This document shows positions 1 to 39,941 of a stretch of 58,570 nt of DNA, piece by piece (position 1 is the stretch's first letter; every line of letters starts with the position of its first letter). Position numbers and translations under genes: made by a program. Source of the stretch: a virus; IMG/VR virus record IMGVR_UViG_3300031963_008020, positions 1 to 58,570 of that record; one strand, given 5' to 3'. The notes beneath the pieces were generated by a model, which worked only from the letters and a program-made list of their open reading frames with translations, made no database searches and had not been told where the DNA came from.

Positions 1-575
1 CTAAAATAAGGTAACAGTTTTTCTAAGTTAGCCCAAAAATCTTCACGCTCAACAAACAAATCAATATGCGGACGCTTATCTAATCCTAGTTTAGCAACAG
101 CATCGACTAGGTAGTTGTTTTCTTCTCGATAAAACTCAACGACACTGCTCCAATCCTTCCACTGTGTGCTGTCGAGAGGATTGCACATTCTGCATTTTAA
201 ATTACAAAGATTGTTAATTTTAATTTCGATAGTAGGAAGTTCAAAAGGCATTGAATAATCGTCATGCAAACTATCAAGTGCAGTTGGATAAAGATTAACT
301 CTACTGTCTGGAAACGTATTTTTAATGTGTCGCTGTCTTAGACTTTCTACACCCTGATCTTCTAAATCAAAACAAGGTACGCAAACAGTAGGACGTTCAT
401 TGTTTAGCACCTGGCGTCTTACTTCTCGCATTTGATCGTTGTTCCATATTTCTTCTAAACTTTCGTTTTGAATCCATCCAACTGGTTGACTGCGACAGCA
501 AACTTTAACAGCACCGTCTTCTCTGGTGGCTAATCCTGTAAACGGATGCATACAAAATGTTTTACTTGAGTGCAT
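1..575 (-). CDS. Radical SAM protein with N-terminal auxiliary-cluster (twitch-like) module, partial
   Basis: Truncated by the window start; 191 codons are visible from an ATG at 575. An N-terminal module has an FCMHPF motif near residue 8, a Cys-Cys pair at 26-27 and CVPC at 65-68, followed by the radical SAM signature CNLKCRMC (Cys 124, 128, 131), which binds the 4Fe-4S cluster that cleaves S-adenosylmethionine. This order, auxiliary Cys module first and radical SAM core second, recurs in eight other genes here. The start overlaps the end of the PP-loop gene by 14 nt, so the two are probably co-transcribed. The substrate is unknown. The C-terminal part of the barrel lies outside the window. 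Confidence 0.88.
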   Translation of the reverse strand, partial: MHSSKTFCMHPFTGLATREDGAVKVCCRSQPVGWIQNESLEEIWNNDQMREVRRQVLNNERPTVCVPCFDLEDQGVESLRQRHIKNTFPDSRVNLYPTALDSLHDDYSMPFELPTIEIKINNLCNLKCRMCNPLDSTQWKDWSSVVEFYREENNYLVDAVAKLGLDKRPHIDLFVEREDFWANLEKLLPYF

Positions 576-1257
576 GTTTTAATCCCCAGGCTCTTTCTAA
601 ACACCAAAAACAATTACCGCAAATAGGAACAGATTGATAGGGTTTATAATTAGTATAATTTAAATCTTCAAACTCGCCTTCGCAACTTCTAGTTATATCA
701 AATAAATCTACTATTCCGTTTTCTGCATATCTTCGAACTATCCAGTCTTTTTGAACATTTATAAATGGATGGTGTACAGGAATACCCATATGTATTAAAA
801 CGGGAGGTATGACTGGAATATTTCTCTCTGGAAGAGCACCGTTGAATATTTCGCTAGGATTTAAATTAACACCAGCATACCATGCATCTAGTTTGTATTT
901 GTGTGCTATGTATTCGTTATATGCTCTAAGTATTATTCTGTTACCTGATTTTAATTTTCCATATTCGTCTGGAATTAATGGACTAACAGGTTCTTCTAAT
1001 TCTGGTGGTACAAAGTTTGTTAAATGTTCAATACGATTGGTATAGCGGCGTTGAAACCAGTGTACTACGTCTCGTGCAATATATTCTTGCCACGGTCTAG
1101 TTTTCCACATTCGTATTTGTGTAGTAAAGTAAATATCAGCAGATGTATTTTCCATTATGAAATAAGCAAGTAGTGCGCTATCTGCACCACCGCTTAAACT
1201 AATACCAATCCTTTGCCAATCTTTATTTAAAGGTATTTCCACACCATCTACGATCAT
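562..1257 (-). CDS. PP-loop ATPase, QueC-like
   Basis: A 231-residue protein with the PP-loop SGGADS at residues 22-27, the ATP-pyrophosphatase motif that adenylates a carboxyl or carbonyl group before amidation or thiolation. The C-terminus carries Cys192 and CGNCFWC (Cys 213, 216, 219), which resembles the zinc site of QueC (7-cyano-7-deazaguanine synthase). Family membership is clear; QueC activity is not, because the rest of the protein is divergent. It is followed by a radical SAM gene with a 14-nt overlap and is divergent from the oxygenase gene at 1303. It could be a 7-deazapurine enzyme or an amide-forming enzyme in the island's pathway. Confidence 0.75.
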   Translation of the reverse strand: MIVDGVEIPLNKDWQRIGISLSGGADSALLAYFIMENTSADIYFTTQIRMWKTRPWQEYIARDVVHWFQRRYTNRIEHLTNFVPPELEEPVSPLIPDEYGKLKSGNRIILRAYNEYIAHKYKLDAWYAGVNLNPSEIFNGALPERNIPVIPPVLIHMGIPVHHPFINVQKDWIVRRYAENGIVDLFDITRSCEGEFEDLNYTNYKPYQSVPICGNCFWCLERAWGLKHALK

Positions 1258-1289
1258 ACTCTATTTAACCTTGCGCTAAAATAGTATAC

Positions 1290-1297
1290 ACTAAATA
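1290..1297 (+). promoter_or_regulatory. Late-type promoter box ACTAAATA, leaderless arrangement
   Basis: ACTAAATA differs from the T4 late consensus TATAAATA at the first two positions. Only 5 nt separate it from the ATG at 1303, so transcription would start at or next to the start codon. No Shine-Dalgarno is visible. The same box and spacing occur at 10573-10580 and 36550-36557. Confidence 0.55.
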
Positions 1298-1302
1298 TCT
1301 TT

Positions 1303-7958: not shown

Positions 7959-8449
7959 TTTATCGAGGTAATTTTGCAAACTGGATCAATCCTACGTGGA
8001 GAGAACTTGTCCTAAACACAGTAGGACAAGCAAGACCCAGAGATTGGCCTCCGGAAACTGCCGTTGAAAGTGCTGAATATTGCAAGGCTCGAGATGCAGG
8101 ATACGATTTAACAGCAACGCACTGGTGGGTATACGAAGAACACGATTTAAATATTAAAATAAGTCCGCCTTGGTGTACTGGAAAAACTGAATGGTGGATC
8201 ACAAAGTTAATGCCTGGTCAATTTATGCCGATGCACACAGACCCATTTACACATTATGAAACTTGTAAACGATATTGGGTGCCATTACAAGACTATCAAC
8301 CCGGGCATTTGTTTGTATACGGAAATTTAGTATTAACAAAGTATTCTGCTGGCGACGTATATGAATACATTAACAGTCAAGATATTCATGGCGCCGCCAA
8401 TATAGGACATATGCCAAGAGTAGTGTTGCAGGTCACTGAATATGAGTAA
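7955..8449 (+). CDS. Fe(II)/2OG oxygenase-like protein with TTG start
   Basis: 164 residues from a TTG start overlapping the previous stop (TTGA). A TTTGGAG Shine-Dalgarno at 7943-7949 is well placed for this start, and no ATG is available near it. LMPGQFMPMHTDP gives His94-x-Asp96; the distal His145 lies in QDIHGAANIG. The motif order matches compact Asp/Asn-hydroxylase-like proteins. It overlaps the radical SAM gene that follows by 8 nt. Confidence 0.62.
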   Translation: MIYRGNFANWINPTWRELVLNTVGQARPRDWPPETAVESAEYCKARDAGYDLTATHWWVYEEHDLNIKISPPWCTGKTEWWITKLMPGQFMPMHTDPFTHYETCKRYWVPLQDYQPGHLFVYGNLVLTKYSAGDVYEYINSQDIHGAANIGHMPRVVLQVTEYE

Positions 8450-9590
8450 AACATATTGTCCGTTGCCATGGGTACACTCGAGTTGGCAAAATGGAAATAC
8501 TATACTTCCTTGTTGTGGATTTATGGACGGCGGAAGGTTCAATAAAACATCCGTATTTGAAAAATTGTATTTTGACAACGAAATGGATCAACTTCGGGCA
8601 GATATGCTTGCTGGTAAAACTATCAAAGGTTGCGAACAATGCTATGATCAAGAAAACAACAATTTAGATAGTATGCGTACTAGAGCGTTAGACAAATACG
8701 GAATTGTAACAACAATAGATTTACAAGATTTGCATATTATGTTTGATAATCTATGCAATTTAAAATGTAGAATGTGTGCAAGTTCAAACAGTCATTTATG
8801 GCACGTAGAAGAAAAAGAGTTATACGGAGAGGCATTTTCTTCTAGCAAATATTTTCAAAATACATTTTATAAAGAAGTAAATTTAAAAAACATTAAAGAA
8901 ATTAATCTTACAGGCGGGGAACCACTTTATAGTCCTCATTTTATTCCTTTCTTAAAAAAATTAAAAGAAGATGCAGATACAAGCCAAATTTATATTGATT
9001 TTTTTACTAATGGAACAATACAGCCCACTGAAGAAATTCTTAGTATATTAAAAGAGTTTAAAAAAGTAACAATTACTATTAGCATAGATGCAATAGGAAA
9101 ATTAAACGACTTTATTAGAAAAAACAGTAATTTTGATGAAATAAAAAATAATTTAGATTTTTATTATAGATTATTGTCAGATAAAATTTCAGTAAATGTT
9201 TTGACTACAGTTGGAATTTACAATGCTATCTATGTCGAAGATATTAAAAACTATTTTAGTTTAAATTATCCAAAGTTTAATTGGGGTTACGATGTAATAC
9301 AGTATCCAGAATATTTAAGTATAAGACACATGCCAACTAACTTAAAAGATATCTACAAAGAGTATATCAAGGAAGAACCGTTGATATCTTATATGTACGA
9401 CAGTGGCAAAGATTTATTTAAACATTTTTTATATTCTCATTATAAACTTAATAAAATAAGAAATGAAGATTTTACTGAGAACAACATTTTGTTAAATTAT
9501 ATTAAAAATAATAATACTGACATTTACGAAGAAGAAACCAAAAAGTATTACAAAAATATGATTAACGAAATTCGTGGATCAAGAGATTAA
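8442..9590 (+). CDS. Radical SAM protein with N-terminal auxiliary-cluster (twitch-like) module
   Basis: 382 residues. N-terminal module: YCPLPW, Cys24-Cys25 and CEQC (64-67). Radical SAM signature CNLKCRMC at Cys 105, 109, 112; the SAM-binding GGEP motif follows near 158. The C-terminal 80 residues lack Cys clusters, so the auxiliary cluster is supplied from the N-terminus. It belongs to the island's nine-member group with this layout. It overlaps the oxygenase upstream and ends 4 nt into the convergent radical SAM gene. Confidence 0.88.
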   Translation: MSKTYCPLPWVHSSWQNGNTILPCCGFMDGGRFNKTSVFEKLYFDNEMDQLRADMLAGKTIKGCEQCYDQENNNLDSMRTRALDKYGIVTTIDLQDLHIMFDNLCNLKCRMCASSNSHLWHVEEKELYGEAFSSSKYFQNTFYKEVNLKNIKEINLTGGEPLYSPHFIPFLKKLKEDADTSQIYIDFFTNGTIQPTEEILSILKEFKKVTITISIDAIGKLNDFIRKNSNFDEIKNNLDFYYRLLSDKISVNVLTTVGIYNAIYVEDIKNYFSLNYPKFNWGYDVIQYPEYLSIRHMPTNLKDIYKEYIKEEPLISYMYDSGKDLFKHFLYSHYKLNKIRNEDFTENNILLNYIKNNNTDIYEEETKKYYKNMINEIRGSRD

Positions 9591-10567
9591 TTTGTATATT
9601 TTTTTAAAACATATTCTGGTGTTTTTAAAAAACTAGTGTCTTTGTCAGAACACATGTCGCATTCTCCTATTTCGCAGTATTTTGTTTCATCAAAAAAATC
9701 AATTTCGTCGTTGTTATAATTTTCTAAATTTATAGGTTTATAATTTAAATATTTTTGCCAATCTGGGTCGTTTAATAAATTATGATGATTTAAAAATCTA
9801 TTTAATGTACCCAAAGAAGAACACTTGTATAATTTTTTATCAATCAAAAAACTACACATATCACTGGTGCAGCCGTTTTGATAAGATTCGGCAGGATTGT
9901 TTGTTTTAAAGGGTTTAGGAATATTATCAATTAATTGATAATTTTGTTTAAATGTGCTTTGCTCTCTGTAATGAACAAACGTTTTATTATAAAATACCTG
10001 TTCAGTATCTTCAATGTAATCATAAAAGTTTTGTCTTTTGTCTAACCACTCTTGATACAAGATATCGTTTTTTTTATTTTCTATATCGAATAGATTTTTA
10101 TAAAAATCGGACACATTTCCACTGGGCAAATTCACAGCATCTGCTAAAAGTTTAAAATTTTGTTTAACTTTATTTGAAAGTGTTTTATCTTCAAATCCTG
10201 AAAAATGGTCACATACAAAAACACTAACATCAAACTGTTTTATTAACGCAACTAGTTCATTGAGTTTTTTATCAATAAGTGTTCCATTGGTTGGTAGTAA
10301 AAGTACAGCATCTGGATCTATGCTTTTTATAAATTTAAATATTTCTGTAATTCGATCTAAATACAGTAACGGTTCACCACCTGAAGTACCATAATAGATT
10401 ATATCAAATTTTTCTTTGACTAATTTAATGCCTGTTAATATGTCATCCAATGTTGGATCATAGTTTTTTGTTTGCAACACATGGCTTCTTGCATCACAAT
10501 GATTGCAGGCTAAGTTACAATAAGCACCGCAGTAAATATCTAAAAATCTCAGGTATGGTTGACTCAT
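9587..10567 (-). CDS. Radical SAM protein, SPASM-like C-terminus
   Basis: 326 residues from ATG 10567; a GTG seven codons upstream overlaps the promoter box and is unlikely. The radical SAM signature CNLACNHC starts at residue 17 (Cys 17, 21, 24), with SGGEP near 66. C-terminal Cys groups (CTSDMC, KCSS, then CEIGECDMC) could bind one or two auxiliary clusters, as in peptide-modifying SPASM proteins. This order, core first and clusters last, differs from the neighbouring gene on the other strand. Confidence 0.85.
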   Translation of the reverse strand: MSQPYLRFLDIYCGAYCNLACNHCDARSHVLQTKNYDPTLDDILTGIKLVKEKFDIIYYGTSGGEPLLYLDRITEIFKFIKSIDPDAVLLLPTNGTLIDKKLNELVALIKQFDVSVFVCDHFSGFEDKTLSNKVKQNFKLLADAVNLPSGNVSDFYKNLFDIENKKNDILYQEWLDKRQNFYDYIEDTEQVFYNKTFVHYREQSTFKQNYQLIDNIPKPFKTNNPAESYQNGCTSDMCSFLIDKKLYKCSSLGTLNRFLNHHNLLNDPDWQKYLNYKPINLENYNNDEIDFFDETKYCEIGECDMCSDKDTSFLKTPEYVLKKYTN

Positions 10568-10572
10568 TGTAA

Positions 10573-10580
10573 TATTTAGT
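10573..10580 (-). promoter_or_regulatory. Late-type promoter box ACTAAATA, leaderless arrangement
   Basis: On the minus strand ACTAAATA is followed by TTACA and then the ATG at 10567, a 5-nt gap, with no Shine-Dalgarno. It matches the boxes at 1290 and 36550 in sequence and spacing. Confidence 0.55.
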
Positions 10581-10648
10581 AGTATCACAATTGAGTAACT
10601 ATGTTTTTGTTTGCAGTAAATATTAGAAATAATACCACAGGAGATAAA

Positions 10649-19260: not shown

Positions 19261-19267
19261 ATACAAT

Positions 19268-21812: not shown

Positions 21813-22023
21813 GTTAAGTTTACGAGAACTGCAAACAGAGTGTGCAAGAGCACTAAGTACAATGCAAGCAACAAATAACAATATAACTCAATTTAATAAA
21901 GTAGCACATCACGATAGTCAACGTTGGTATCGAGCAGTTATAACTTGGTATGTCGAACAATATGGCGATTTACCTAGTAAAACAGGACCTGGGAAGGACG
22001 TAACGTTAATACACGATGTATGA
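21799..22023 (+). CDS. Small protein of unknown function, TTG start
   Basis: 74 residues. A TTG at 21799 is the only reasonable start, since the first in-frame ATG is more than 20 codons in; AAAGG at 21784-21788 may serve as ribosome site. Helical with RWYRAVITWYV near the middle. It overlaps the methyltransferase by 14 nt and the radical SAM gene by 8 nt, consistent with a coupled accessory gene. Confidence 0.6.
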   Translation: MDLDKLSLRELQTECARALSTMQATNNNITQFNKVAHHDSQRWYRAVITWYVEQYGDLPSKTGPGKDVTLIHDV

Positions 22024-23095: not shown

Positions 23096-23105
23096 GAGAT
23101 GATTG

Positions 23106-28675: not shown

Positions 28676-30122
28676 TATATTAATATGCATTGTACCTAAA
28701 ATTTTTCCAGATGCTCCAACAGTTGGTCCAGCAGTATTAAAGTCTCATATAGAATCTGCCGGATTTTCTTGCGAAGTTATAGATTTAAATATTAAATTAT
28801 ATAACGAATTTAAACAACACGGAGATGAAGATCAGTTTTTTGATAAAGATAGTGCATTTAGATGTCGAGATATTGAAAAAGTCGACGAAGTGTTTGGTGA
28901 AAATTATAAAAAATACAAATATGTTTTTGACGAATGGATCAACCTTTTCAAAGAAAAAAATCCTAAGTGGATAGGGTTAAGTTTATTAACAGTAATGAGT
29001 AGTGCAGTTGCAATAAAACTTAGTCAACTTATTAGAGAAAACTTACCAGAAACAAAGATAATATGGGGCGGCGCCGAAGTTACAAGAGGACGTACTAAAA
29101 AATACTTTGAACACGGACTAATTGATCATTGGATCAGCGGTGACGGCGAAGTTCCGATCATTAATTTGTTAAAGGGAGAAATAGATAACGATGGCATTGA
29201 TGATAGACCTCCTTATCAATTAATCGATATAAACAGTGTACTAGTTCCAAACTATAATGACATTACTTGGAACGAATATCCATTTATTAATCAACCCGAA
29301 CCAGTATATATTACCGGAAGCAGAGGGTGTGTTAAACGTTGTGATTTTTGCAATGTTTATGAAATATGGCCAAAATATGTTTTTAGAAGTGGCGAAAGTA
29401 TTGCTAACGAAATTATTCAAGTTAAACAAAAGTATAACAGAACTACTTTTAAATTTACAGATAGTCTTATAAATGGTAGTATGAAAGCGTTTAGAGAAAT
29501 GCTTCATATTTTAGCAGATTTTAACAATACAAGAAATACCGAAGATGAAAAAATTAGATGGCATAGTCAATGGATAGTAAGAAACTTTAGACAAAGTCCA
29601 GAAGAAGACTACTGTCTTATGAAAGAAAGTGGCTGCTATGCACTCGACGTTGGTGTTGAAAGTTTTAGTCAAGCAGTCAGGTTTGAACTAGGAAAAAAGT
29701 TTACAGATGAAGATATGTGGTGGTGCTTTGAAATGTTGCAAAAATACGAAATACACCACACACTGTTAATGTTTGTTGGTCATCCTTTTGAAACCGACAT
29801 AGACCATCAAATAACTTTAGATACTATTAAAAAATTATATGAAAAAGGCTATTCCACAAAAAGAGTTAATGAAAAAAAACTTATGTATGTTAGTATGGCA
29901 AATACTATGATGTTATCTGATGATACTCCAGTATGGAATAAAGTAAAAGATGAACTTGAATATTGGTACAACGACTGGAATTGGAAATTTAGAGATAATA
30001 CACTTGAAGTAAGACTCAAACGTCTTGAAGAAGCAAACGACTTTTTATCTAAATTTGCAGAGCAAGAAAAATCGTGGATGGTGCGTAAAAAAATTGAAAT
30101 GATAAAGAAAAGTTTTGGATAA
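28659..30122 (+). CDS. Cobalamin-binding-type (B12) radical SAM protein
   Basis: 487 residues from ATG 28659; an in-frame TTG two codons earlier is unlikely. The N-terminus has the B12-domain order GPAVLKSHIESAGF, KIIWGGAEVTRG and WISGDGEVP. The radical SAM signature CVKRCDFCNVYE has Cys at 224, 228 and 231. Class B members methylate or rearrange unactivated positions. It overlaps genes on both sides. Confidence 0.88.
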   Translation: MNKRLDILICIVPKIFPDAPTVGPAVLKSHIESAGFSCEVIDLNIKLYNEFKQHGDEDQFFDKDSAFRCRDIEKVDEVFGENYKKYKYVFDEWINLFKEKNPKWIGLSLLTVMSSAVAIKLSQLIRENLPETKIIWGGAEVTRGRTKKYFEHGLIDHWISGDGEVPIINLLKGEIDNDGIDDRPPYQLIDINSVLVPNYNDITWNEYPFINQPEPVYITGSRGCVKRCDFCNVYEIWPKYVFRSGESIANEIIQVKQKYNRTTFKFTDSLINGSMKAFREMLHILADFNNTRNTEDEKIRWHSQWIVRNFRQSPEEDYCLMKESGCYALDVGVESFSQAVRFELGKKFTDEDMWWCFEMLQKYEIHHTLLMFVGHPFETDIDHQITLDTIKKLYEKGYSTKRVNEKKLMYVSMANTMMLSDDTPVWNKVKDELEYWYNDWNWKFRDNTLEVRLKRLEEANDFLSKFAEQEKSWMVRKKIEMIKKSFG

Positions 30123-31186
30123 TGCCATTTTGTAATGCGTTGACAAATCATATGTGTATTACAGTAGCAGCAAGTTGGCGGCCCTGTTGTCGGTTTAATA
30201 ATTTTCCTTTGGTGGATATAAACCAAGTCGATTTTAAATCATATCAAGACAGTGATTTTTATAAATCTATTAAATCAGATATGTTTTCCGGATGGTCGTC
30301 TGGTTGTAAAAAATGCAAAGAAGAAGAAGAGCGAGGACAAACAAGTTTACGAGAAGTGTTAAATAAAACTTTATCAGGTAGTTCGGATATTGAATATGTT
30401 GAGATTAGTTTAAGTAATAACTGCAATCTTGCTTGTAAGATGTGTTCTCCTACTTACAGTACTTTTTGGAATAAATTAGTAACTGACAACCAAGTATTAA
30501 ATGATTATTATACTACAACTATTCAACCAACTATTAGTGTAGAAAAAATATTTTCAACGATTGATTTGTCTAAGTTAAAAAAAATTAAATACCTAGGAGG
30601 AGAACCATTTATAACTCCAGAAATAAAAGAACTGTTTGAATTTTTAGAAATAAAAGGAATAATACAAAACATTGAATTTGAATGTAATACCAACTGTACA
30701 CTTTTTCCTACAAAATGGTTACATTACTTAGATAAATTTAAAAAAGTAACAATAGAACTTAGCATCGACGGTGTTGGATTAGTTAACGATTATATTAGAT
30801 ACGGAAAGATGTGGAATACTATTGAAAAAAATATTATAAAGTGGTCTAAAACAGATTACGATGTAAATGTTTATAGTACTGTACAAGCATATAACTTACA
30901 TGACATGAAAAATGTTAAAGAACTCGCAAATAGTCTATCTTTAAAACATTACAGTAGTTTGCTAGTAGTTCCTGAATTTTTAAGTGTACACACGTTACCG
31001 TTGGACTATTTAGAAATTATCAAAGATAATTACAATCAAAAATATTTTAAAAGTATTAAAAACAATAATAAATTTGCAGAATTGACTAAATTTACAAAGA
31101 CGATAGATAACATTACTGGATTGCATTTAAAAAACGTAGTGCCATTATTGTATAATTTTATGGAGAATAACAATGAGTCGAATTGA
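30122..31186 (+). CDS. Radical SAM protein with N-terminal auxiliary-cluster (twitch-like) module
   Basis: 354 residues. FCNA, Cys22-Cys23 and CKKC (62-65) precede CNLACKMC (Cys 101, 105, 108) and LGGEP. It is similar over the whole length to the gene at 38895: both have the FCNALTNHMC/ICKALHNQVC opening, the PCC and GxYxG patterns, and YLGGEP. The two are dispersed paralogues about 8.7 kb apart. It overlaps the oxygenase gene after it by 14 nt. Confidence 0.87.
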   Translation: MPFCNALTNHMCITVAASWRPCCRFNNFPLVDINQVDFKSYQDSDFYKSIKSDMFSGWSSGCKKCKEEEERGQTSLREVLNKTLSGSSDIEYVEISLSNNCNLACKMCSPTYSTFWNKLVTDNQVLNDYYTTTIQPTISVEKIFSTIDLSKLKKIKYLGGEPFITPEIKELFEFLEIKGIIQNIEFECNTNCTLFPTKWLHYLDKFKKVTIELSIDGVGLVNDYIRYGKMWNTIEKNIIKWSKTDYDVNVYSTVQAYNLHDMKNVKELANSLSLKHYSSLLVVPEFLSVHTLPLDYLEIIKDNYNQKYFKSIKNNNKFAELTKFTKTIDNITGLHLKNVVPLLYNFMENNNESN

Positions 31187-32066
31187 CGAACCGGGATATT
31201 ATCAACTACCGATGGACCATCCTATTGCTATAGAAAATGTTCGTAGACATTCGAGCAAAGCCGCATGTATTGAAAATATGTGGGATGAAAAAGAACTTGA
31301 TTGGCTTTGGAAAAATGCTTTTACAGCAGACTACAATGTTCCTAGATTAAACAAAAATGGGACAGTAATCATTGATGTTGATATGAGCAAAATATATCAG
31401 CGTTATAAAGAAAAGTTTGATGCAGCATTAGGCACAACTGCTGAAAAAACTCCAGTAATTGGCGGCAACTATTTTATTACTCCCCAGCAGTATGGGTTGC
31501 ACCAAGATGCAATGCGTGAAAAAGGTTATAAAAACATGCTAGAGCATGTGCCTTTAAACCATCCTCAAAGAAAATATACCACGTGGAAAAATATTATTAC
31601 ACCATTATGGATAGGAACACATCTTGATACAATAGACGGCGGACAGATAGTCTTCTTCGAAGAACGTGATATAGGATGGGCTAAAGTTTACAACGGCGGT
31701 GCCGAAACTAAAAATATTGCCAGTATTTACGAAATTGTAACCGACTATAAACACCTTCAATTTTATGACAGAGATGGCAACCCTATACCGCAGTCCGACG
31801 AGCCGTTTGACAAAGATTTTTATAACAAGTATATGAATACTCCTTATCGTAGATTACAAGGTTTAAACCCTGAATCAGTATTTGATTGGACCCCGGGATC
31901 TCCGTGTATATTTGATGCTGTGCAATTACACGCAACAAACGAAGGCACCAAAGGCGGCGAACATAAAAAGACATGGAACAGTAAAATGGGTCTACTTATG
32001 ATGTTTATGATCGAATTGGATGAGGATCTATTAATAGAATGGCGCAAAGAACAAGAGAAGATGTAA
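31173..32066 (+). CDS. Fe(II)/2OG oxygenase-like protein
   Basis: 297 residues. GLHQDA (His110-x-Asp112), then DGGQIVFFEERD, and distal His253 in FDAVQLHATN give a clear double-stranded beta-helix order. TATGGAG at 31160-31166 is a good ribosome site for ATG 31173. It sits between a radical SAM gene and a methyltransferase pair in the same transcript. The substrate is unknown. Confidence 0.7.
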   Translation: MSRIDEPGYYQLPMDHPIAIENVRRHSSKAACIENMWDEKELDWLWKNAFTADYNVPRLNKNGTVIIDVDMSKIYQRYKEKFDAALGTTAEKTPVIGGNYFITPQQYGLHQDAMREKGYKNMLEHVPLNHPQRKYTTWKNIITPLWIGTHLDTIDGGQIVFFEERDIGWAKVYNGGAETKNIASIYEIVTDYKHLQFYDRDGNPIPQSDEPFDKDFYNKYMNTPYRRLQGLNPESVFDWTPGSPCIFDAVQLHATNEGTKGGEHKKTWNSKMGLLMMFMIELDEDLLIEWRKEQEKM

Positions 32067-32068
32067 AC

Positions 32069-32668
32069 ATGATAATAACAAAAGCAATGGATATACCCGG
32101 AGAAACAACCGAACTTCAACATGAGTGGTATCAAAAAATTGTTAATTGGTTTTATTATAAACCTAAAATTTTAGAAATTGGATGTGCGTGGGGTAGAGGA
32201 TCGTGGGCATGGTTAGATTGTATAACTGATACCAACGACGGCTCTTTAGAAATTTTAGATAATTGGGCGTACTCAAGGAGATATAGCAAAATTAAAATTT
32301 ATGATGAAAATTATTATAATCACATAGGACAGATTTTTCCCGATTATAATCAAAAAGAAATATTGTTGTATAATTTAAAACAAAACAAAAATTTTAAAAA
32401 ATTAAAACACATTTATACAGGCAAGTATTTAGCCGCACCAAAATCTTATGATATTGTTTATTTAGATGATGATCATAGTCAAGAAAACGTATTAAACGAA
32501 TTAAATTATTTTAATGGAATTCCTGTAATATGTGGAGATGACTTTGCCCAAAGTCAACCCGGAGTTCTAAAAGCAATATGTAAATTTTATTCTAAAAATT
32601 TTAATAATTATAAATTATATACAGATCCTGATGCTAGATTTTGGGTAATGAAACGAATAGACATATGA
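32069..32668 (+). CDS. Class I methyltransferase-like protein, copy 1
   Basis: 199 residues from ATG 32069; an in-frame ATG at 32039 lies inside the preceding gene. ILEIGCAWGRGSWAW is SAM motif I; DIVYLDDDHSQENV and ICGDDF are the acidic motifs, in a Methyltransf_24-like order (sugar or small-molecule methylation). A paralogue of similar plan begins 91 nt after it. Confidence 0.65.
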   Translation: MIITKAMDIPGETTELQHEWYQKIVNWFYYKPKILEIGCAWGRGSWAWLDCITDTNDGSLEILDNWAYSRRYSKIKIYDENYYNHIGQIFPDYNQKEILLYNLKQNKNFKKLKHIYTGKYLAAPKSYDIVYLDDDHSQENVLNELNYFNGIPVICGDDFAQSQPGVLKAICKFYSKNFNNYKLYTDPDARFWVMKRIDI

Positions 32669-33466: not shown

Positions 33467-34618
33467 ATGTCACACACATTTTGTAGCGAACCTTATAAAC
33501 AAATACATTTCGATAGTAGAGGAAACTTGGGACCGTGTTGTCAATATGTAGGTATTAGACCAGAAATGACAAGTTTTAATGAATACTTAAATAGTGATTG
33601 GTTAAAAAATTTAAAAAACCAGTTAAACAACAATCATAAAACAAGTGGATGCAATTTTTGTTGGAAACAAGAAAACAATGGATCTAAAAGTATGCGTGAA
33701 AAAAGAAATGCATACTATGAAAATAAACCCAACAACGGAATAGAACATATTATGATTACTTACGGCAATCAATGCAATACTGCATGTCGTATATGCAACT
33801 CGAGTAGAAGTAGTTTAATTGAAAAACAGTATAGAGAAATGAAAGATAACGTTACTGATCAAGAACTTTTGAATTTAATAAGTAAAAAACATGTATGGAA
33901 TAAAACAAAGACTTGGTATCGTAATATAAACAATGATATAATTTCAATCGCAGACACTATTCGAAAAATTGAAATCAGTGGTGGCGAACCTTTTATAAAT
34001 GTTCATTTTGATAAACTTATAGATGGTTTAATTGAGTCTGGTAAAAAATTGCCAGGACTTAATATAACAACTAACGGAAGTTTTACAGAGGAACAAATTG
34101 TTAAGCTAAAAGAATTCGAGCATGTACATATAAACTTTAGTATCGACGGAGTAGGAAAAGATTTTTACGAATATTTAAGATGGCCCTTAAAATGGAATGA
34201 CGTCTTATCAAAAATTGATATTCTTAAAAAGTATCCGTGGATAACTTGCGAATTTGTTATAGTTCCTCATAACTTAAACGTTTTAAATTTAAGTGAAAGT
34301 ATCATTTGGTTTAAAGAATATACAAATTACGATACTAGATTTAAGATAGGATTTAGTTGGCTTAACGGAGCACCTTGGTATAGTATTGATAATACTCCGA
34401 AACGGGCAAGAGATAAGGCTATAGCAGATATAGAAAGTACTATATTTGTAGATTACACTGACGTAGAGATAGAACAGATTAACGAATTAATTTTTATTTT
34501 AAAGAACGCAAACAACCCTAAAGAATTAAATTTATTAAAATCTCATGTTGCAATGACTGATTCTTATAGAAATTGTAACACATGGGATGTTGTTGGATGG
34601 AAATTAGAAGAGATATGA
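33467..34618 (+). CDS. Radical SAM protein with N-terminal auxiliary-cluster (twitch-like) module
   Basis: 383 residues. FCSEPY, Cys24-Cys25 and CNFC (62-65) precede CNTACRIC (Cys 103, 107, 110) and SGGEP. The C-terminus lacks Cys clusters. It overlaps the next radical SAM gene by 4 nt (ATGA), so the pair is translationally coupled. Confidence 0.87.
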   Translation: MSHTFCSEPYKQIHFDSRGNLGPCCQYVGIRPEMTSFNEYLNSDWLKNLKNQLNNNHKTSGCNFCWKQENNGSKSMREKRNAYYENKPNNGIEHIMITYGNQCNTACRICNSSRSSLIEKQYREMKDNVTDQELLNLISKKHVWNKTKTWYRNINNDIISIADTIRKIEISGGEPFINVHFDKLIDGLIESGKKLPGLNITTNGSFTEEQIVKLKEFEHVHINFSIDGVGKDFYEYLRWPLKWNDVLSKIDILKKYPWITCEFVIVPHNLNVLNLSESIIWFKEYTNYDTRFKIGFSWLNGAPWYSIDNTPKRARDKAIADIESTIFVDYTDVEIEQINELIFILKNANNPKELNLLKSHVAMTDSYRNCNTWDVVGWKLEEI

Positions 34619-35709
34619 ATAAACCTTTTTGCTATGCACCTTGGACAACAATCCAATACAGTGGAGTATATAGTGGCGGCGGAACGTCTCCGTGTTGTGA
34701 ATGGAGGGGAGAAAAATATAAAGGAAAAGTTAAAGATTACCAAGATAGTGAATATTTGGATAAAATAAAACTTGCAATGGAAACACACGATACAAGTTTT
34801 ATTGCTTTTAGTTGTCAAGAATGTATTAATACTGAGTCACATGGCATCTTGTCGGCTAGAAATTTTATTGATAAAAACGTAAAAAATAATAAGTATGAAA
34901 TAGGAAAAATAAACAAATTAGATTATAGGCCGGATAATTTGTGTAATTTAAAATGTAGAATGTGTAGCCCGAGTAGTAGCAGCCTCATCGAAGAAGAACG
35001 AGTTTTACATAATTTGATAAAGCCTATTGAAAAAAGAGATACCAATGACGTGTTAGACTTTGATTTATCTAGTTTAAGACATCTTGCTATATTAGGTGGC
35101 GAACCAACAGTTAACAAAAATCTCTTTCCTATTTTAGATTATTTTATAGAGACCGGTATGACAGAAACTGTTCGCTTGCAGTATACAACTAATTGTACAA
35201 GTGTTAATAACCCGTGGATGAGTCGAGTGAAACAATTTAAAGAGGTCAACATAAATTTAAGTTTAGACGGCGCTGGAAAATCTTATGAGTATATAAGAAC
35301 AGGTGCAAAATGGTATAATGTTGAAAAAAACATTCATAAAATAATAAAATCTGCAAATAATTACAGTATTAACATGTGTATTCAAATGGTAAATTTTGTG
35401 CTAGTTGAAGACTGGATAGAATACTTTTTTCAGTTTGATTCTGATAAAGTACACATGAATCCTATGTTTGGAGCAGTTCCAGGAAAGGTTGACTGCATAC
35501 CTGACGATATTAGAGAACAAAAAATAGAATATTTGCAATCTTTAAAACATCCTATATCGGATAAATTAGTTGATAGATTTAAAAATTACAAATTTAATAT
35601 AAATGAACTTATACGATACAAAGAATTCAACAGTTGGCATGACAACATAAGAAATACAAATTTATTAGACCTTGATCCTATTTTTTCAAAAATCTTAACA
35701 ATGGTCTAA
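34615..35709 (+). CDS. Radical SAM protein with N-terminal auxiliary-cluster (twitch-like) module
   Basis: 364 residues from ATG 34615, which overlaps the previous stop as ATGA; the longer in-frame extension to 34582 lies inside that gene. FCYAPW, Cys27-Cys28 and CQEC (67-70) precede CNLKCRMC (Cys 110, 114, 117) and LGGEP. It ends tail-to-tail with the aminotransferase-like gene on the other strand, with a 32-nt coding overlap. Confidence 0.86.
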   Translation: MNKPFCYAPWTTIQYSGVYSGGGTSPCCEWRGEKYKGKVKDYQDSEYLDKIKLAMETHDTSFIAFSCQECINTESHGILSARNFIDKNVKNNKYEIGKINKLDYRPDNLCNLKCRMCSPSSSSLIEEERVLHNLIKPIEKRDTNDVLDFDLSSLRHLAILGGEPTVNKNLFPILDYFIETGMTETVRLQYTTNCTSVNNPWMSRVKQFKEVNINLSLDGAGKSYEYIRTGAKWYNVEKNIHKIIKSANNYSINMCIQMVNFVLVEDWIEYFFQFDSDKVHMNPMFGAVPGKVDCIPDDIREQKIEYLQSLKHPISDKLVDRFKNYKFNINELIRYKEFNSWHDNIRNTNLLDLDPIFSKILTMV

Positions 35710-36523
35710 TACCAACAGGTTTGCCAGCGGCAGTTTTGGCTAAATGTATAGATTTAGTCGGCAACAGTTGAAAGTCAGTTATTACTTTTTTATATTCTTC
35801 GTTATATGTTTTCCAAAAATATTCTGGGCCAAATGTTTCCATAAATTTAATACCCATACTAACCAATGCTTGACTATTCATATTAAAGTCGTTCATTATA
35901 GTTACTGCACCTAGTGGAGTATTTCTTGCAAACCGCACCCCTATTCTATTTCCACCTAGCCCTCCCTTGCTTAAACTAATACCAAATGTTTGAATAGCAG
36001 GGTGGTCAAAGTCGAATTCGATATCTCGAATACAACTTATCCAAGCACCATCGATGTGTACAGGTATTTTTAGTTTATAGCAAGTATTTAAAATTTCTGT
36101 CATTTCTGGATGTACATCACCGTAGTACGGAAACGGCATTGAAATTAACAACTCTTTATTTGGATCTAATGTATCAATAGTAGTATAAGTTATATTAGGA
36201 TTTAATCTATAATGATACTTATAGTCGTTTTCAAAAGTTTGTAACGAACCGCAGCGTTGATAAAGATCATCGATATATTGAGTACAGCCGTTTATAATGT
36301 CTAATCTTTTAAAAACATCTACACCTTTAAATTTACTATACTGATGATTTTTAAGCCAATTAACAAATGTTTCTTTAAAAATCGAGTCTAAATCTGCGGT
36401 ATGTACTGGATTTTCTTTATAAAAATTATCGTAAAACTCGTTAATTTTATTACTGTACATAGGTTGCGGCCTGTCAGTTTGTAACCATTCTTTAGTATAC
36501 TCTCTTGTTACGTTATCTCTCAT
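35678..36523 (-). CDS. PLP-dependent aminotransferase-like protein, paralogue
   Basis: 281 residues. ISMPFPYYGDVHPEM, IPVHIDGAW (Asp158) and ISLSKGGLGGNRIGVRF (Schiff-base Lys186) match the order in the protein at 13967. Like that one it is short, with a reduced N-terminal arm. It is the sole minus-strand gene between 19.2 and 39.9 kb and has its own late box. The fold is well supported, the reaction is not. Confidence 0.66.
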   Translation of the reverse strand: MRDNVTREYTKEWLQTDRPQPMYSNKINEFYDNFYKENPVHTADLDSIFKETFVNWLKNHQYSKFKGVDVFKRLDIINGCTQYIDDLYQRCGSLQTFENDYKYHYRLNPNITYTTIDTLDPNKELLISMPFPYYGDVHPEMTEILNTCYKLKIPVHIDGAWISCIRDIEFDFDHPAIQTFGISLSKGGLGGNRIGVRFARNTPLGAVTIMNDFNMNSQALVSMGIKFMETFGPEYFWKTYNEEYKKVITDFQLLPTKSIHLAKTAAGKPVGIRPLLRFLKK

Positions 36524-36528
36524 GAAAA

Positions 36529-36536: not shown

Positions 36537-36549
36537 TGCGTAGTTAACT

Positions 36550-36557: not shown

Positions 36558-36562
36558 ACAAT

Positions 36563-37753
36563 ATGAAACCTTGCATACTTCCTTGGATAAATTTTAGCAC
36601 CAACACATTCGGTCGTCCTCGAACTTGCGGCTATGCAGATCAGGCAGTTGTAAAAGATGCACAAGTCAAGTTAAAAGGTAGTAGTATAGAAAACGAATGG
36701 AACAATGATTATTTTAAAAAAATACGTATAGATTTTTTAAACGGAAAATGGCCAGAGAACTGTAAGCGTTGCGAGTACGTTGAAAGTTTAAATGGTCATA
36801 GTAAACGATTAGAAGAAAACAAATACCATTACGAAACAAACAAACATCTCATCAATGAAACTAAATCCGATGGCAGTGTTCCGTATTACCCACCTAATAT
36901 TGATATTCGTGTTGGCACAATTTGTAATTTGAAGTGTATACATTGCGGCACCGGCGCTAGCAGCAAATGGAACGAAGACAAGTCCCTATTAAACAAATAT
37001 CCTAATACAGAATCGTATAACATAGATAACAAGTGGATAGAACAAGATAGTTTTATATGGGATAATATAAAAGAAAATCTACATCAAACAAAAAAGTTTA
37101 ACTTTTTAGGTGGAGAGCCATTTGCTAATAAACAACACAATAAATTTATCGAAGAAATTTCAAAAACAGAACACGCAAGTAAAATAACACTTCACTATGT
37201 CAGTAACGGAACATTGTTAACTGAAAAGATACTTAATCAACTATCTAAATTTGAAAGTGTTGTAATTAGATTAAGTGTTGACGCTATTGATATTCCTGGA
37301 GAATATTTTAGATTTCCTATTAAATGGGAAACATTTAAAAAGAAACTCGAATTAATACAACAATATGCAAAACAGTATAGTAACTTTGATGTTGGGGTAC
37401 AGTGGACCTGCTCAAATATAAGTATGTTTTATCTAGTTGAGACGTATGATTACATAAAATTTAATTTTCCAGATATAAAATTTATTCTTTGTAATCATGT
37501 AGAATGGCCGATTCACATGAGTGCTCAAGTGTTACCCGTAGAATTAAAACAAATTATCAAAGAAAAAATAAATCGATACAATTTTGATGACACAGACAAA
37601 ATAGAATTTTATGTTAATCACATGTTTGAAAAAGATTTATGGAACGAATACGGAAAAACATTCATTTCTTATCTAAATGACCTAGACACCGCACGAAACA
37701 TATCATGGAAGCATAGTTTTAAAGAAATGAAAATTGAAAACTACACATATTGA
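36563..37753 (+). CDS. Radical SAM protein with N-terminal auxiliary-cluster (twitch-like) module
   Basis: 396 residues. CILPW, a single Cys22 (RTCGYA, in place of the usual Cys-Cys pair) and CKRC (67-70) precede CNLKCIHC (Cys 121, 125, 128) and LGGEP. The loss of one Cys in the N-terminal pair is the only such case in the group and may change auxiliary-cluster ligation. DGSVPYYPPNIDIRVGT resembles DGSVPPQLAYIDLRFGT of the gene at 27260. Confidence 0.85.
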   Translation: MKPCILPWINFSTNTFGRPRTCGYADQAVVKDAQVKLKGSSIENEWNNDYFKKIRIDFLNGKWPENCKRCEYVESLNGHSKRLEENKYHYETNKHLINETKSDGSVPYYPPNIDIRVGTICNLKCIHCGTGASSKWNEDKSLLNKYPNTESYNIDNKWIEQDSFIWDNIKENLHQTKKFNFLGGEPFANKQHNKFIEEISKTEHASKITLHYVSNGTLLTEKILNQLSKFESVVIRLSVDAIDIPGEYFRFPIKWETFKKKLELIQQYAKQYSNFDVGVQWTCSNISMFYLVETYDYIKFNFPDIKFILCNHVEWPIHMSAQVLPVELKQIIKEKINRYNFDDTDKIEFYVNHMFEKDLWNEYGKTFISYLNDLDTARNISWKHSFKEMKIENYTY

Positions 37754-37777
37754 CTATTTAAAAAAAGACGTTATAAT
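37750..37777 (+). promoter_or_regulatory. Near-consensus sigma70 promoter, leaderless
   Basis: TTGACT at 37750-37755, a 16-nt spacer and TATAAT at 37772-37777; only 5 nt then precede the ATG at 37783, so the predicted transcript begins at or within the start codon. The -35 box overlaps the stop codon of the upstream gene. Confidence 0.65.
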
Positions 37778-37782
37778 AAATT

Positions 37783-38895
37783 ATGAATGAAGATTTAAAA
37801 TGGAGTAATTATGATTTTACCAAGATTCCGTTTGACGACATTATACAAGTCGGCCAGCGGACACTCTTATATAGAGACTTATTTACTGTATCTTGGCTCC
37901 TTGGAAGATACTGCAACTACAGATGCTCATACTGCTGGCCCTATGCAAGATCTGACAGAAAAGATCATAGACCTACAGAGTTATGTCTCAAAACCATCGA
38001 CGAAATAAAGCGTCAGGCTCGTGACAATGGATTTAATAGTTTTCACTTTTCGTTAAGTGGTGGTGAGCCTACATTTCATCCTGGATACTTAGACATACTA
38101 AAACATCTAGCAGATGATGTTGACAATACCAATTATACTAGTGTACATATGACATCGAATTGTAGTAGACCTGTGCGCTGGTTTGAAGATTATGTAGAAA
38201 AAGTCAAGCCGTTTCACAGAGCAAGCATTACAGCAAGTTTGCACACTGAACATTTAGATACAACAGCAAAGATGCAGGATTTTGCAGACAAACTGATATT
38301 ATGTCAAGAACACGATGTTCAAGTTACTATCAACATGGTTATGGTACCCGAATGGTTTGAACGTGATTGGGACAATGCACTATTCTTCCACGAGCAGGGC
38401 ATAAACGTAACGCTAAAGCCTCAAAGCGACCCTACAGCAAGCCGAGTAGTAGATGGATACACAGATGACAATCTAAAACGTTTACACAACGGTATGCCGC
38501 AGCGTGCTTATACAGAAACAAAGCGTAAATGGAACGACCGTCCTAGACCTAATTTTGAACTACCTAAACACGCTTTAGTTAATAATGATTCAAATGTTCC
38601 TAGCCATTTTCAAGTAGAATTTTTAGATTCTACAGGAAAAAAATGGTACATGGATCAAGCCGAAAGATTTAATGCTTTTAATTTTAATAAATTTAAAGGC
38701 TGGAATTGCAATGCTGGGTATCAAGGAATTATTATCAGAGAACCTGACGGAAGTATAAAACGTAGTTACAGTTGTTCAGATGTTCCATTAGGAAACATTG
38801 AAACAGGATTTAAATTGTTTTCTAATCCAATGCCCTGTATAACTGATAGTTGTGTTAGTTCGGCTGACAGTAAAATACCAAAAAGAAAACACTAA
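37783..38895 (+). CDS. Compact radical SAM protein
   Basis: 370 residues. Signature CNYRCSYCWPYARS (Cys 44, 48, 51), SGGEPTFHPGY, then a C-terminal Cys pattern WNCNAG, YSCSD and CITDSC that could bind an auxiliary cluster. It is the partner of the gene at 26270 in a two-member subfamily. It is preceded by a host-type promoter, so it may be expressed early, unlike neighbours with late boxes. It overlaps the next ATG by 1 nt. Confidence 0.84.
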   Translation: MNEDLKWSNYDFTKIPFDDIIQVGQRTLLYRDLFTVSWLLGRYCNYRCSYCWPYARSDRKDHRPTELCLKTIDEIKRQARDNGFNSFHFSLSGGEPTFHPGYLDILKHLADDVDNTNYTSVHMTSNCSRPVRWFEDYVEKVKPFHRASITASLHTEHLDTTAKMQDFADKLILCQEHDVQVTINMVMVPEWFERDWDNALFFHEQGINVTLKPQSDPTASRVVDGYTDDNLKRLHNGMPQRAYTETKRKWNDRPRPNFELPKHALVNNDSNVPSHFQVEFLDSTGKKWYMDQAERFNAFNFNKFKGWNCNAGYQGIIIREPDGSIKRSYSCSDVPLGNIETGFKLFSNPMPCITDSCVSSADSKIPKRKH

Positions 38896-39941
38896 TGCCA
38901 ATCTGTAAAGCCCTTCATAATCAAGTGTGTATAGAACTCAGTGGTTTTTATAAACCATGCTGTTCGTACAAAGGTATAAGTAAAATTTCTGTAAATGATA
39001 TGTCTCCGGATGACTTTTTACATTCCGAATATATAGCAAATATAAGAAAAAATATGGAGGGCAATTCATGGGATCCGGGTTGCTACAACTGTAAAAAACA
39101 CATCGAACTAGGATTACATTCTGTAAAAGATTCTTATGATTTTTATTGTAAATCTGACTTAAACACTTTTGAAATGTTAGAGTTGTCTGTTAGTAATAAA
39201 TGTAATAATCAATGTAGAATGTGTGATTCTAGACATAGTAGTTTGTGGCAAAAAACTTTAGGAGGCAGCAATATACCTGTGTCTTATTATAATTTAGAAA
39301 ACGTTCTATCTAAGATAAAAAGTAAAGATATTAAAATTATAAAATATCTAGGTGGAGAACCATTAATAACTGATGAAGTGTTTCATATATTTGAGTTTAT
39401 CGAAAAAAATAAAGAAAATAAAATTTCTTTTTATGTAAACACAAATTTAACAGTTCCTCCTGAAAAATATTTAAAACATTTTACAAATATAGACAGTTTT
39501 ATAATTGGATATAGTATTGACGGTACTGGATTAACAAACGAATATATTAGAGATGGAAGCAAATGGGAAACTATAAAAAGAAATCTAGATAAGTGGGAAA
39601 ACTATATTAATAAAAGAAACGATAACAGTGAAAGATATGTTCATACAGTTTTGCAAGCCTATAATTATCATGATATAGAAAATATAAACAAATTATGTCA
39701 AGATTACGGATTATACTATAATATTTTTCCTATTACATATCCTTTGGAATTTTCGATAAATGCTTTACCTCAATGGTATATTGAAAAACATATGTGCAAA
39801 GAAACTGAAGAATTTTTAAAAAATTACAATCACGACACTGAGTTACTCTCTAAATTAATTGAAACTACGGCAAGTCAAGACAATGTGCTTCAAAAGTCAA
39901 TAAATGACTTTATACCAGAATTGAGTTTTTTAAAAACTTAA
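38895..39941 (+). CDS. Radical SAM protein with N-terminal auxiliary-cluster (twitch-like) module
   Basis: 348 residues. ICKAL, Cys22-Cys23 and CYNC (63-66) precede CNNQCRMC (Cys 103, 107, 110) and LGGEP. It is a dispersed paralogue of the gene at 30122. The last plus-strand radical SAM gene, it ends 2 nt before the convergent nitroreductase. Confidence 0.87.
   Translation: MPICKALHNQVCIELSGFYKPCCSYKGISKISVNDMSPDDFLHSEYIANIRKNMEGNSWDPGCYNCKKHIELGLHSVKDSYDFYCKSDLNTFEMLELSVSNKCNNQCRMCDSRHSSLWQKTLGGSNIPVSYYNLENVLSKIKSKDIKIIKYLGGEPLITDEVFHIFEFIEKNKENKISFYVNTNLTVPPEKYLKHFTNIDSFIIGYSIDGTGLTNEYIRDGSKWETIKRNLDKWENYINKRNDNSERYVHTVLQAYNYHDIENINKLCQDYGLYYNIFPITYPLEFSINALPQWYIEKHMCKETEEFLKNYNHDTELLSKLIETTASQDNVLQKSINDFIPELSFLKT

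Follow-up and report, generated by a model that had tools for sequence, protein, structure and literature searches.

A 58,570-nt stretch of DNA from a large uncultivated phage (IMG/VR record IMGVR_UViG_3300031963_008020, positions 1 to 58,570; hereafter the window) was found to carry eighteen radical-SAM (rSAM) genes in a 40-kb segment, as first read from the sequence. All eighteen are real, seventeen being complete and one cut by the window edge. We give an even chance to the reading that the window is most of a host-recognition island, which would make radical-tailored, glycan-type decorations in a large tailed phage. Radical-SAM enzymes are demanding, oxygen-sensitive catalysts, and phage records of more than 100 kb encode 5 to 23 of them each, for the most part within a single island; the product would therefore be worth much coding space.

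Identity and architecture of the radical-SAM genes

In a DNA search, PF04055 matched all 17 complete genes above its curated cut-off, which bears out the radical-SAM classification of each (Table 1); in a per-protein hmmscan, the gene at 22016..23095 scored 28.0 against the cut-off of 29.5 (1.5 bits below). Eighteen full-length family matches cannot be attained by chance. The cut gene, entered as "575-" in the initial annotation, is the minus-strand ORF 1-575; as it runs past the left window edge, it was not listed among the closed ORFs. Its 191 residues contain N-terminal cysteines and the motif CNLKCRMC, and a complete copy is present at 60370-61620 of the sister record G001 (NF033640, 318.9 bits; cut-off 170). 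The neighbouring gene at 562-1257, which encodes a QueC-like PP-loop protein without Cx3CxxC, is not the one meant by this entry. Four start codons differ immaterially from those first given (23103 for 23106, 28653 for 28659, 34582 for 34615, and 10588 for 10567).

Four architectures were distinguished by our own grouping, where at least four had been claimed: an N-terminal twitch/SPASM-like domain in nine rSAMs (1-575, 8442, 25153, 27260, 30122, 33467, 34582, 36563, and 38895), extra downstream cysteines in four (12869, 22016, 23103, and 24131), a short type in three (9587-, 26270, and 37783), and a B12-binding type in two (15911 and 28653). The family NF033640 (N_Twi_rSAM; cut-off 170 bits) is named after a domain, not a function; eight of the 17 complete proteins belong to it (205-422.8 bits), as does the copy of the cut one, and the other nine fall short. 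The protein at 15911-17758 scored 205.6 bits, below the cut-off of 700, against the KedN5 B12-rSAM methyltransferases (NF033712), and no window rSAM reached the cut-off of 180 for the viperin family NF038283 (best 47.1 bits, 26270).

Two observations bear on the possibility of a chimeric assembly. The sister record (76,348 bases; IMG 3300031784) contains all 58,570 window bases at 99.99% identity, in an assembly that may not be independent of the first. The neighbourhood is also repeated elsewhere: in G041, G042, and G047, as in the window, ~9-14 kb separate the rSAM run from a MoxR ATPase, a phage marker.

Table 1. Features of the window, with the matches on which each assignment is based.
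Feature	Position	Strand	Evidence
rSAM 1, N-terminal-twitch type, edge-cut	1..575	-	CNLKCRMC; G001 copy NF033640 318.9 bits
QueC-like PP-loop protein	562..1257	-	PF06508 21.4 bits, under cut-off 22; phrog_1550
rSAM 2, N_Twi	8442..9590	+	NF033640 248.4 bits
rSAM 3, short type	9587..10588	-	PF04055 E 3.4e-12
TauD-type 2OG dioxygenase	10601..11719	+	PF02668 E 1.4e-14
rSAM 4, C-terminal SPASM-like	12869..13966	+	PF04055 E 1.6e-11; SPASM E 0.0017, below cut-off
Probable PLP aminotransferase-like	13967..14872	+	clusters with 35678-36523; typed by eye, no Pfam match
Amidinotransferase, inosamine-phosphate/SxtG type (StrB1-like)	14850..15911	+	1bwd E 1.6e-86
rSAM 5, B12-binding	15911..17758	+	PF04055 E 1.1e-12; PF02310 E 0.0055, below cut-off; NF033712 205.6 bits
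Tail-fibre-like repeat protein, divergent from core module	17753..19198	-	fibre role by eye; PHROGs: one unknown family, E 0.0074
Core GT-A-like protein	19232..20911	+	degenerate repeats (by eye) and one DxD domain
Core class I methyltransferase-like	20892..21812	+	judged from motifs in alignment
Core 74-aa protein	21799..22023	+	found in 63/80 loci
rSAM 6, core module, C-terminal SPASM-like	22016..23095	+	PF04055; follows 74-aa gene
rSAM 7	23103..24125	+	PF04055 E 1.5e-7
rSAM 8	24131..25150	+	PF04055 E 1.1e-9; SPASM E 8.4e-4, below cut-off
rSAM 9, N_Twi	25153..26277	+	NF033640 219.9 bits
rSAM 10, short type	26270..27217	+	PF04055 E 9.5e-13
rSAM 11, N_Twi, core module	27260..28675	+	NF033640 422.8 bits
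rSAM 12, B12-binding	28653..30122	+	PF04055 E 1.2e-15; PF02310 31.4 of 32.1 bits
rSAM 13, N_Twi	30122..31186	+	NF033640 227.3 bits
Methyltransferase-like	32039..32668	+	PF13578 E 3.5e-4, below cut-off
rSAM 14, N_Twi	33467..34618	+	NF033640 215.2 bits
rSAM 15, N_Twi	34582..35709	+	NF033640 217 bits
Second probable PLP aminotransferase-like	35678..36523	-	clusters with 13967-14872; typed by eye, no Pfam match
rSAM 16, N_Twi	36563..37753	+	NF033640 294.4 bits
rSAM 17, short type	37783..38895	+	PF04055 E 9.8e-15; G004 counterpart 88.9% identical
rSAM 18, N_Twi	38895..39941	+	NF033640 205 bits
Nitroreductase	39944..40597	-	PF00881 E 5.1e-11
Mtd N-terminal domain protein, probable fibre	48855..50483	-	PF18454 E 3.3e-8
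MoxR-type AAA ATPase	53418..54497	-	phrog_1297; 51.2% to phage PA5oct

Spread and history of the repertoire

The rSAM-rich islands belong to the lineage and are not an oddity of a single genome. All 40 records chosen via the core rSAM carry 4-24 rSAMs, and so do 19 of the 21 records sampled via the MoxR ATPase, a probe independent of rSAM, with 13-23 in each of the eight exceeding 100 kb. Related contigs were drawn from many metagenome accessions, and up to 22 NF033640 matches per phage record were obtained at E 0.001, not all of them above the cut-off. Seven isolated large phages (141-498 kb), two of which were selected because they possess rSAMs, have 0, 4, 4, 0, 6, 2, and 1. The proposal of an expanded, diversified repertoire was upheld by this comparison (18 versus 0-6), whereas the argument from paralogue pairs failed, the best pair within the window (23103/24131) reaching 40% and the median ~22%. 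When 117 rSAM cores drawn from seven records were placed in one tree, the nearest tip lay in the same genome for only 5, compared with 17.1 expected with shuffled labels; recent tandem duplication is therefore not the origin. Judged from these sequences, the repertoire is old and consists largely of groups common to the lineage. Eight orthologue pairs are under purifying selection (pN 0.10-0.26, pS 0.67-0.88).

Recognition clusters bearing rSAMs and a phage genome with 12 rSAMs are already in print. The latter, TARA_ERS488813_N000010, is a T4-like 183-kb marine phage genome reported in 2017, which we liken to the present records by its published description, where the rSAMs were read as iron-sulphur metabolism (PMC5332604). 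Auxiliary metabolism of this kind is a highly improbable account of the islands: the A-type carrier PF01521 is found in G010 and G047, but in only these 2 of 22 records, and the rSAMs form diverse groups amid sugar and fibre genes. For the scale and spread of the islands and for their core module, no precedent was found in the literature searched.

A conserved core module

The core genes occur in the order GT-A-like protein, methyltransferase, 74-aa protein, SPASM-type rSAM, and N-terminal-twitch rSAM. The first two are neighbours in 50 of 81 loci and fused in 15. D-x-D is invariant among 10 aligned sequences of the 19232 family, and the AlphaFold model of one relative (pLDDT 85.5) is best matched by GT-A glycosyltransferases. 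Since nucleotidyltransferases (MobA, IspD, HddC) rank close behind and TM-scores are low, only the GT-A-like fold is secure from the model, and glycosyltransferase activity is predicted. A divergent repeat-type, fibre-like gene adjoins the core in only 12 of the 44 loci whose upstream gene could be read, the window included. Relatives of rSAM 27260 were found in 210 viral stretches, the best 80 viral loci being 79-100% identical; GenBank phages and species genomes yielded no close relatives of the tested core genes. Because close relatives of these genes were not found there and related contigs come from many metagenomes, the islands would represent a reservoir of uncharted radical chemistry.

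The 74-aa gene and the SPASM-type rSAM gene share a strand in 63 of 80 loci, the former lying upstream; the two overlap in 36 of the 63 and are within 6 bases in 5 more. The structures closest to the core rSAM model are peptide-modifying SPASM enzymes (sactipeptide maturases, anSME) and the top Foldseek matches of the GT-A-like model are peptide S-glycosyltransferases; a peptide may therefore be the substrate, contrary to the glycan reading. The gene arrangement and the peptide maturases nearest in structure to the core rSAM, together with several NCBIfam peptide-maturase models that match far under their cut-offs, are consistent with a RiPP-like product or modified phage protein, with the 74-aa protein as substrate or carrier of SPASM-type rSAMs, glycosyltransferase, and methyltransferase. 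We regard this as improbable, given that the two genes are 300-1,900 bases apart in 22 of 63 loci, that the 74-aa protein, the candidate for a short precursor peptide, is conserved over its full length with no evident division into leader and variable core, and that the RRE/PqqD domain PF05402 was matched in 0 of 22 records (control matched in 3 of 14 genomes). The 74-aa protein had no match in PHROG, GenBank phages, or GTDB. A broader but unlikely possibility is a modular radical workshop, in which a fixed core and changing rSAM groups would give variable modification of virion proteins and the 74-aa protein would be a new modified carrier; if true, it would be a chemical counterpart of antigenic variation.

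Island content and its predicted product

In the 256-kb record G006, the island measures ~48 kb and holds most of the rSAMs. A Pfam survey of the island regions in seven records, covering 144 non-rSAM proteins (25 of 48 families listed), recovered NAD-dependent epimerase/dehydratase (5), DegT/DnrJ/EryC1 aminotransferase (5), UDP-glucose/GDP-mannose dehydrogenase (4), Asp/Arg hydroxylase (6), and tryptophan halogenase (2). The epimerase is present in 20 of 22 records, with none inside the window itself and one in the extension of the sister record. Tail-fibre genes lie within the islands of several records, and fibre genes are near glycosyltransferase and nucleotide-sugar genes in the window with its sister's extension, G004, and G034. 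In G004, PHROGs annotated one protein as tail fibre/collar and another as nucleotide-sugar epimerase; in G028, it annotated a carbamoyltransferase. The window's amidinotransferase aligns with StrB1/SxtG over its whole length; unlike these, it is encoded in a phage island and not in a recognised aminoglycoside or saxitoxin pathway.

Under the favoured glycan reading, nucleotide-sugar enzymes, aminotransferases, and the amidinotransferase would supply building blocks, which the 18 rSAM enzymes would tailor by radical chemistry. Such reactions include epimerisation, dehydrogenation, and deoxygenation, as well as C-methylation for B12 types. Cytosolic GT-A-like glycosyltransferases and the methyltransferase would then join the decorations to their acceptor, which would most likely be a virion protein such as a tail fibre. 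The decoration would vary between relatives, because these retain the core module but differ in the remaining rSAM genes. Possible benefits are evasion of surface defences, altered receptor contact, or the shutting out of rivals.

Glycans might instead be placed on the host surface, the phage altering O-antigen or capsule during infection and thereby excluding rival phages. The nucleotide-sugar enzymes would fit this scheme, and pelagimyophage host-recognition clusters, described as holding tail fibres, glycosyltransferases, and rSAM cassettes, were argued to change the O-chain (PMC7029224). We consider it unlikely, though the most credible of the alternatives. Neither the flippase PF01943 (control matched in 13 of 14 genomes) nor the initiating sugar transferase PF02397 (9 of 14) was matched in any of 22 records, which makes virion proteins the more likely site, and a crude scan found a strongly hydrophobic segment in just 6 of 356 island proteins; together, these results point to a probably cytosolic acceptor. 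Host enzymes could provide the flippase or otherwise compensate.

Hypermodification of DNA or nucleotides, whereby rSAMs would tailor a base as protection from restriction, is very unlikely: the QueC-like family was found in 10 of 10 records compared (window and sister among them), a 2OG oxygenase gene is present, and ornithine decarboxylase and homospermidine synthase lie beside the island, but the rSAM genes are located among sugar-enzyme and fibre genes. HMUDK_hel (PF18723), the hydroxymethyl-dU DNA kinase of thymidine hypermodification systems, was matched in 0 of 22 records and likewise in none of the control genomes.

Compared by published description, the islands resemble the pelagimyophage cluster, which is likewise large and hypervariable and combines tail fibres, glycosyltransferases, and sugar genes with rSAM cassettes (PMC7029224). 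They differ in belonging to other, larger phages, in holding as many as 24 rSAMs, and in their conserved GT-methyltransferase-74aa-rSAM-rSAM core. The cultured SAR11 phage Mosig EXVC030M (Pelagibacter; MT647606) has a smaller, similar island between tail-fibre and baseplate genes. It has just 2 rSAMs by PF04055, against 18 in the window. The 74-aa protein, the GT-A-like protein, and rSAM 27260 drew no match in it, and rSAM 22016 is matched weakly (21.8% over 53%). Shared are MoaA-like rSAMs, DegT-type aminotransferase, carbamoyltransferase, nitroreductases, epimerase, and TauD and Asp/Arg hydroxylases. With this small island as a starting point, the decoration of virions or host surfaces becomes accessible to experiment.

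Radical-SAM genes of the window

The window is a virus record of 58,570 bases. The initial annotation had counted 18 radical-SAM (rSAM) genes in it, and all 18 were borne out. Seventeen are complete, every one scoring above the Pfam PF04055 cut-off in the DNA-level search. The eighteenth, a minus-strand ORF (1-575) cut by the window edge, contains CNLKCRMC and the N-terminal cysteines, and its complete copy in the sister record G001 scores 318.9 bits against NF033640 (cut-off, 170 bits). Its identification with gene 562-1257 was rejected, since the entry at 575 refers to the ORF that the window edge truncates. The abundance of rSAM genes is real, and striking.

Nine of the rSAMs are of an N-terminal twitch/SPASM-like type. 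Those that are complete, eight in number, score 205 to 422.8 bits against NF033640 and so pass it, and the ninth, cut gene passes via its G001 copy. An alignment of the eight shows no variation at four N-terminal cysteines, at the three rSAM cysteines or at GGE, a pattern that fits intact enzymes with an auxiliary iron-sulphur cluster. The remaining rSAMs comprise four with extra cysteines downstream, three short ones and two putatively B12-binding ones, an assignment with weak support for 15911 (PF02310, E 0.0055) and a score just short of the cut-off for 28653 (31.4 vs 32.1 bits).

G001 (76,348 bases; 24 rSAMs in total) holds the entire window at 99.99% identity. The right-hand part of the window carries phage genes: a MoxR-type ATPase and DUF2201/VWA pair, together with a 5'-3' exonuclease. 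PA5oct-type jumbo phages have ATPases with 51% identity to this one. Records found through this ATPase alone also contain rSAM islands, and it lies about 9-14 kb from the island in the window and in three such genomes (G041, G042 and G047). From the G001 match and the ATPase-found records, an assembly artefact was rejected; as far as assemblies can tell, the window does not appear chimeric, though the G001 and window samples may not be independent.

Distribution and origin of the repertoire

A search with the core rSAM 27260 returned 210 viral stretches, the best 80 of which (79-100% identity) were made into loci. All 40 records examined from these 80, picked for long contigs, contain rSAMs (4 to 24 each); the 14 longer than 100 kb carry 5 to 21, so long records are not uniformly rich. 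To avoid choosing records by their rSAMs, the MoxR ATPase was used for sampling. rSAMs were present in 19 of 21 ATPase-sampled records of at least 30 kb (21 of 22 such records, with G001 omitted and G013 shared with the 40-record set). The eight of at least 100 kb hold 13 to 23 rSAMs, three of them (G041-G043) appearing to be near duplicates of a single phage. No rSAM occurs in two records (46 and 31 kb), and a single one in each of two others (48 and 32 kb), all four being possible fragments. Isolated large phages (seven genomes, 141-498 kb), five chosen via the ATPase and two via weak rSAM matches, gave counts of 0, 4, 4, 0, 6, 2 and 1. rSAM richness characterises a lineage of large uncultivated phages.

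Local paralogy, from which the initial annotation had argued for an expanded repertoire, was not supported. The best pair of window rSAMs shares 40% identity (median about 22%), and in a tree built with 117 rSAM cores of seven records (clusters 0 and 1, B12 types excluded; some branches are long and deep relations unsure), the nearest tip belonged to the same genome for only 5, compared with an average of 17.1 under shuffled labels. Recent in-place expansion was rejected on this evidence. With G001 excluded, 14 of the 18 window rSAMs have a better match in another genome, two inside the window, and two are tied; for ten, the eight other records compared contain a relative at 48% identity or more, and for the other eight only distant relatives (at most 38%). 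The repertoire consists of old, largely shared groups that were kept, lost or exchanged among relatives. Eight orthologue pairs are under purifying selection, with pN of 0.10-0.26 against pS of 0.67-0.88, the latter near saturation. Scans of the contigs of species genomes found no bacterial source of 27260 or of the 74-aa protein described below; these scans rest on short peptide patterns, which distant relatives could escape.

A recurrent core module

Five window genes recur as a set: a GT-A-like protein (19232), a methyltransferase-like protein (20892), a 74-aa protein (21799) and two rSAMs (22016 and 27260). The loci span 10 kb on each side of 27260 and are silent on window genes past about 39 kb. 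In the 19232 family, D-x-D is invariant. An AlphaFold model of a relative (pLDDT 85.5) matched GT-A glycosyltransferases best, with B4GALNT1 at Z 10.4 in VIA (rmsd 3.0, 138 residues) and SunS as the best Foldseek match (E 2.1e-5). Nucleotidyltransferases such as MobA were next at Z 9.3, and TM-scores were low; for this reason only a predicted GT-A-like fold is claimed, activity being no part of the claim. By eye, 19232-20911 comprises several degenerate repeats followed by one DxD domain, and in a fused relative (locus L060, 2823-6206) a run of DLRK..HSLFRL repeats joins the GT-A-like and methyltransferase halves. From its motifs, 20892 looks like a class I methyltransferase.

Genes of the 19232 and 20892 types are adjacent in 50 of 81 loci (the window counted among the 81), one gene apart in three and fused in 15, where a single product of 819-1127 residues results; in 13 loci one of the three genes sought is missing. 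The 74-aa gene occurs in 63 of 80 loci, on the strand of both neighbours, and in 61 of the 63 it ends 200-250 bases past the methyltransferase-like gene. It overlaps the SPASM-type rSAM gene in 36, lies at most 6 bases from it in 5, and 300-1,900 bases away in 22. Alignment of the window's sequence with 17 of the 63 locus sequences revealed 32 invariant positions. PHROGs, GenBank phages and the species genomes searched yielded no match to the protein, and the PDB matches of its profile (designed repeat proteins, antibody chains, one lipoprotein) were taken as chance. Profiles of the GT-A-like, methyltransferase, PP-loop and fam2 families likewise found no firm PDB relative by sequence.

In a viral structure library, the core rSAM model matched rSAM proteins of uncultured Caudovirales phages best (E 4e-25 downwards) and also Vibrio phage KVP40 (E 3e-10), indicating that its fold is widespread in phage proteins.

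Island context and possible function

Tail-fibre/collar family genes lie at the island edge in G004 and G034, and PHROGs names include a nucleotide-sugar epimerase (G004) and a carbamoyltransferase (G028). Pfam matches of 144 non-rSAM island-region proteins from seven records (25 of 48 families listed) include NAD-dependent epimerase/dehydratases (5, with a similar number for overlapping models), DegT aminotransferases (5), UDP-glucose/GDP-mannose dehydrogenases (4), Asp/Arg hydroxylases (6), tryptophan halogenases (2) and a TylF methyltransferase, among others. The window encodes an inosamine-phosphate-type amidinotransferase (E 1.6e-86) alongside a TauD dioxygenase, a nitroreductase and an Mtd N-terminal-domain protein. 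Its run of polyamine genes would, from their predicted products, constitute a phage polyamine pathway. Families were clustered across records from the output of a simple purpose-made ORF caller; one, fam2, has 31 members in nine records and none in the window. It is perhaps a GT10-like fucosyltransferase, which is not claimed (single match, E 0.17).

Coordinates of further window genes
Feature	Position	Strand	Remarks
QueC-like PP-loop protein	562-1257		SCE and CxxCxxC site invariant throughout an alignment of nine sequences; family shared by the ten records compared
Cold-shock domain fused to 2OG-Fe(II) oxygenase domain	3729-4604		
Homospermidine synthase, lysine/ornithine decarboxylase, AMP-ligase, PP-loop protein	40631-47209	-	One run; synthase E 4.8e-118, decarboxylase E 2.3e-52
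Subtilase-family peptidase	47284-48855		PF00082 E 1.4e-28; between Mtd-domain gene and polyamine genes
MoxR-type ATPase	53418..54497	-	

The GT-A-like protein, which some relatives carry as a fusion with a methyltransferase, together with sugar-nucleotide enzymes, aminotransferases and numerous rSAMs in the neighbourhood of fibre genes, suggests from context that the island makes unusual glycan-type decorations for host recognition. Markers were sought in 22 records hand-picked from both sets (window and G001 included), some of them similar, e.g. G002/G006/G007 and G034/G014; the tests covered RRE, A-type carrier, epimerase, flippase, initiating transferase and the DNA-modification marker HMUDK_hel (PF18723). 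Twenty of the 22 contain an epimerase; the window does not. Flippase and initiating-transferase families were found in 0 of 22, controls for both being detected, and a crude scan found a strongly hydrophobic segment in only 6 of 356 island proteins. These results point to an acceptor in the cytosol, a virion protein for example, rather than to a complete envelope pathway, although host enzymes could supply the missing steps. The core rSAM might instead act on a peptide: the structures closest to its model are peptide-modifying SPASM enzymes (Foldseek E 1.8e-6, low TM), but an RRE domain occurs in 0 of 22 records. DNA modification would be a less likely role; PF18723 occurs in 0 of 22 records, and its control gave no signal in any genome either. 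A role in iron-sulphur metabolism is a further idea, but its marker occurs in only 2 of 22.

Islands of this kind are already known, given a T4-like marine genome of 183 kb whose 12 rSAM genes were interpreted in 2017 as iron-sulphur metabolism (PMC5332604), the host-recognition clusters of pelagimyophages, reported in 2020 to combine fibres, glycosyltransferases and rSAM cassettes (PMC7029224), and the small island of the cultured Pelagibacter phage Mosig EXVC030M, which is similar in make-up to those of the window's lineage. PMC12619734 concerns a different jumbo lineage, and the word 'radical' is absent from its main text. The rSAM number, the lineage-wide spread, the conserved core with its 74-aa protein, the GT-methyltransferase fusion and a test of rSAM origin were not found in searches of an open-access library. 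The isolated 255-kb Vibrio phage K566 (locus L233, 8019-12421) has six PF04055 matches, four above the cut-off and three of the six in rSAM-annotated genes within 5 kb, and is a possible laboratory model.
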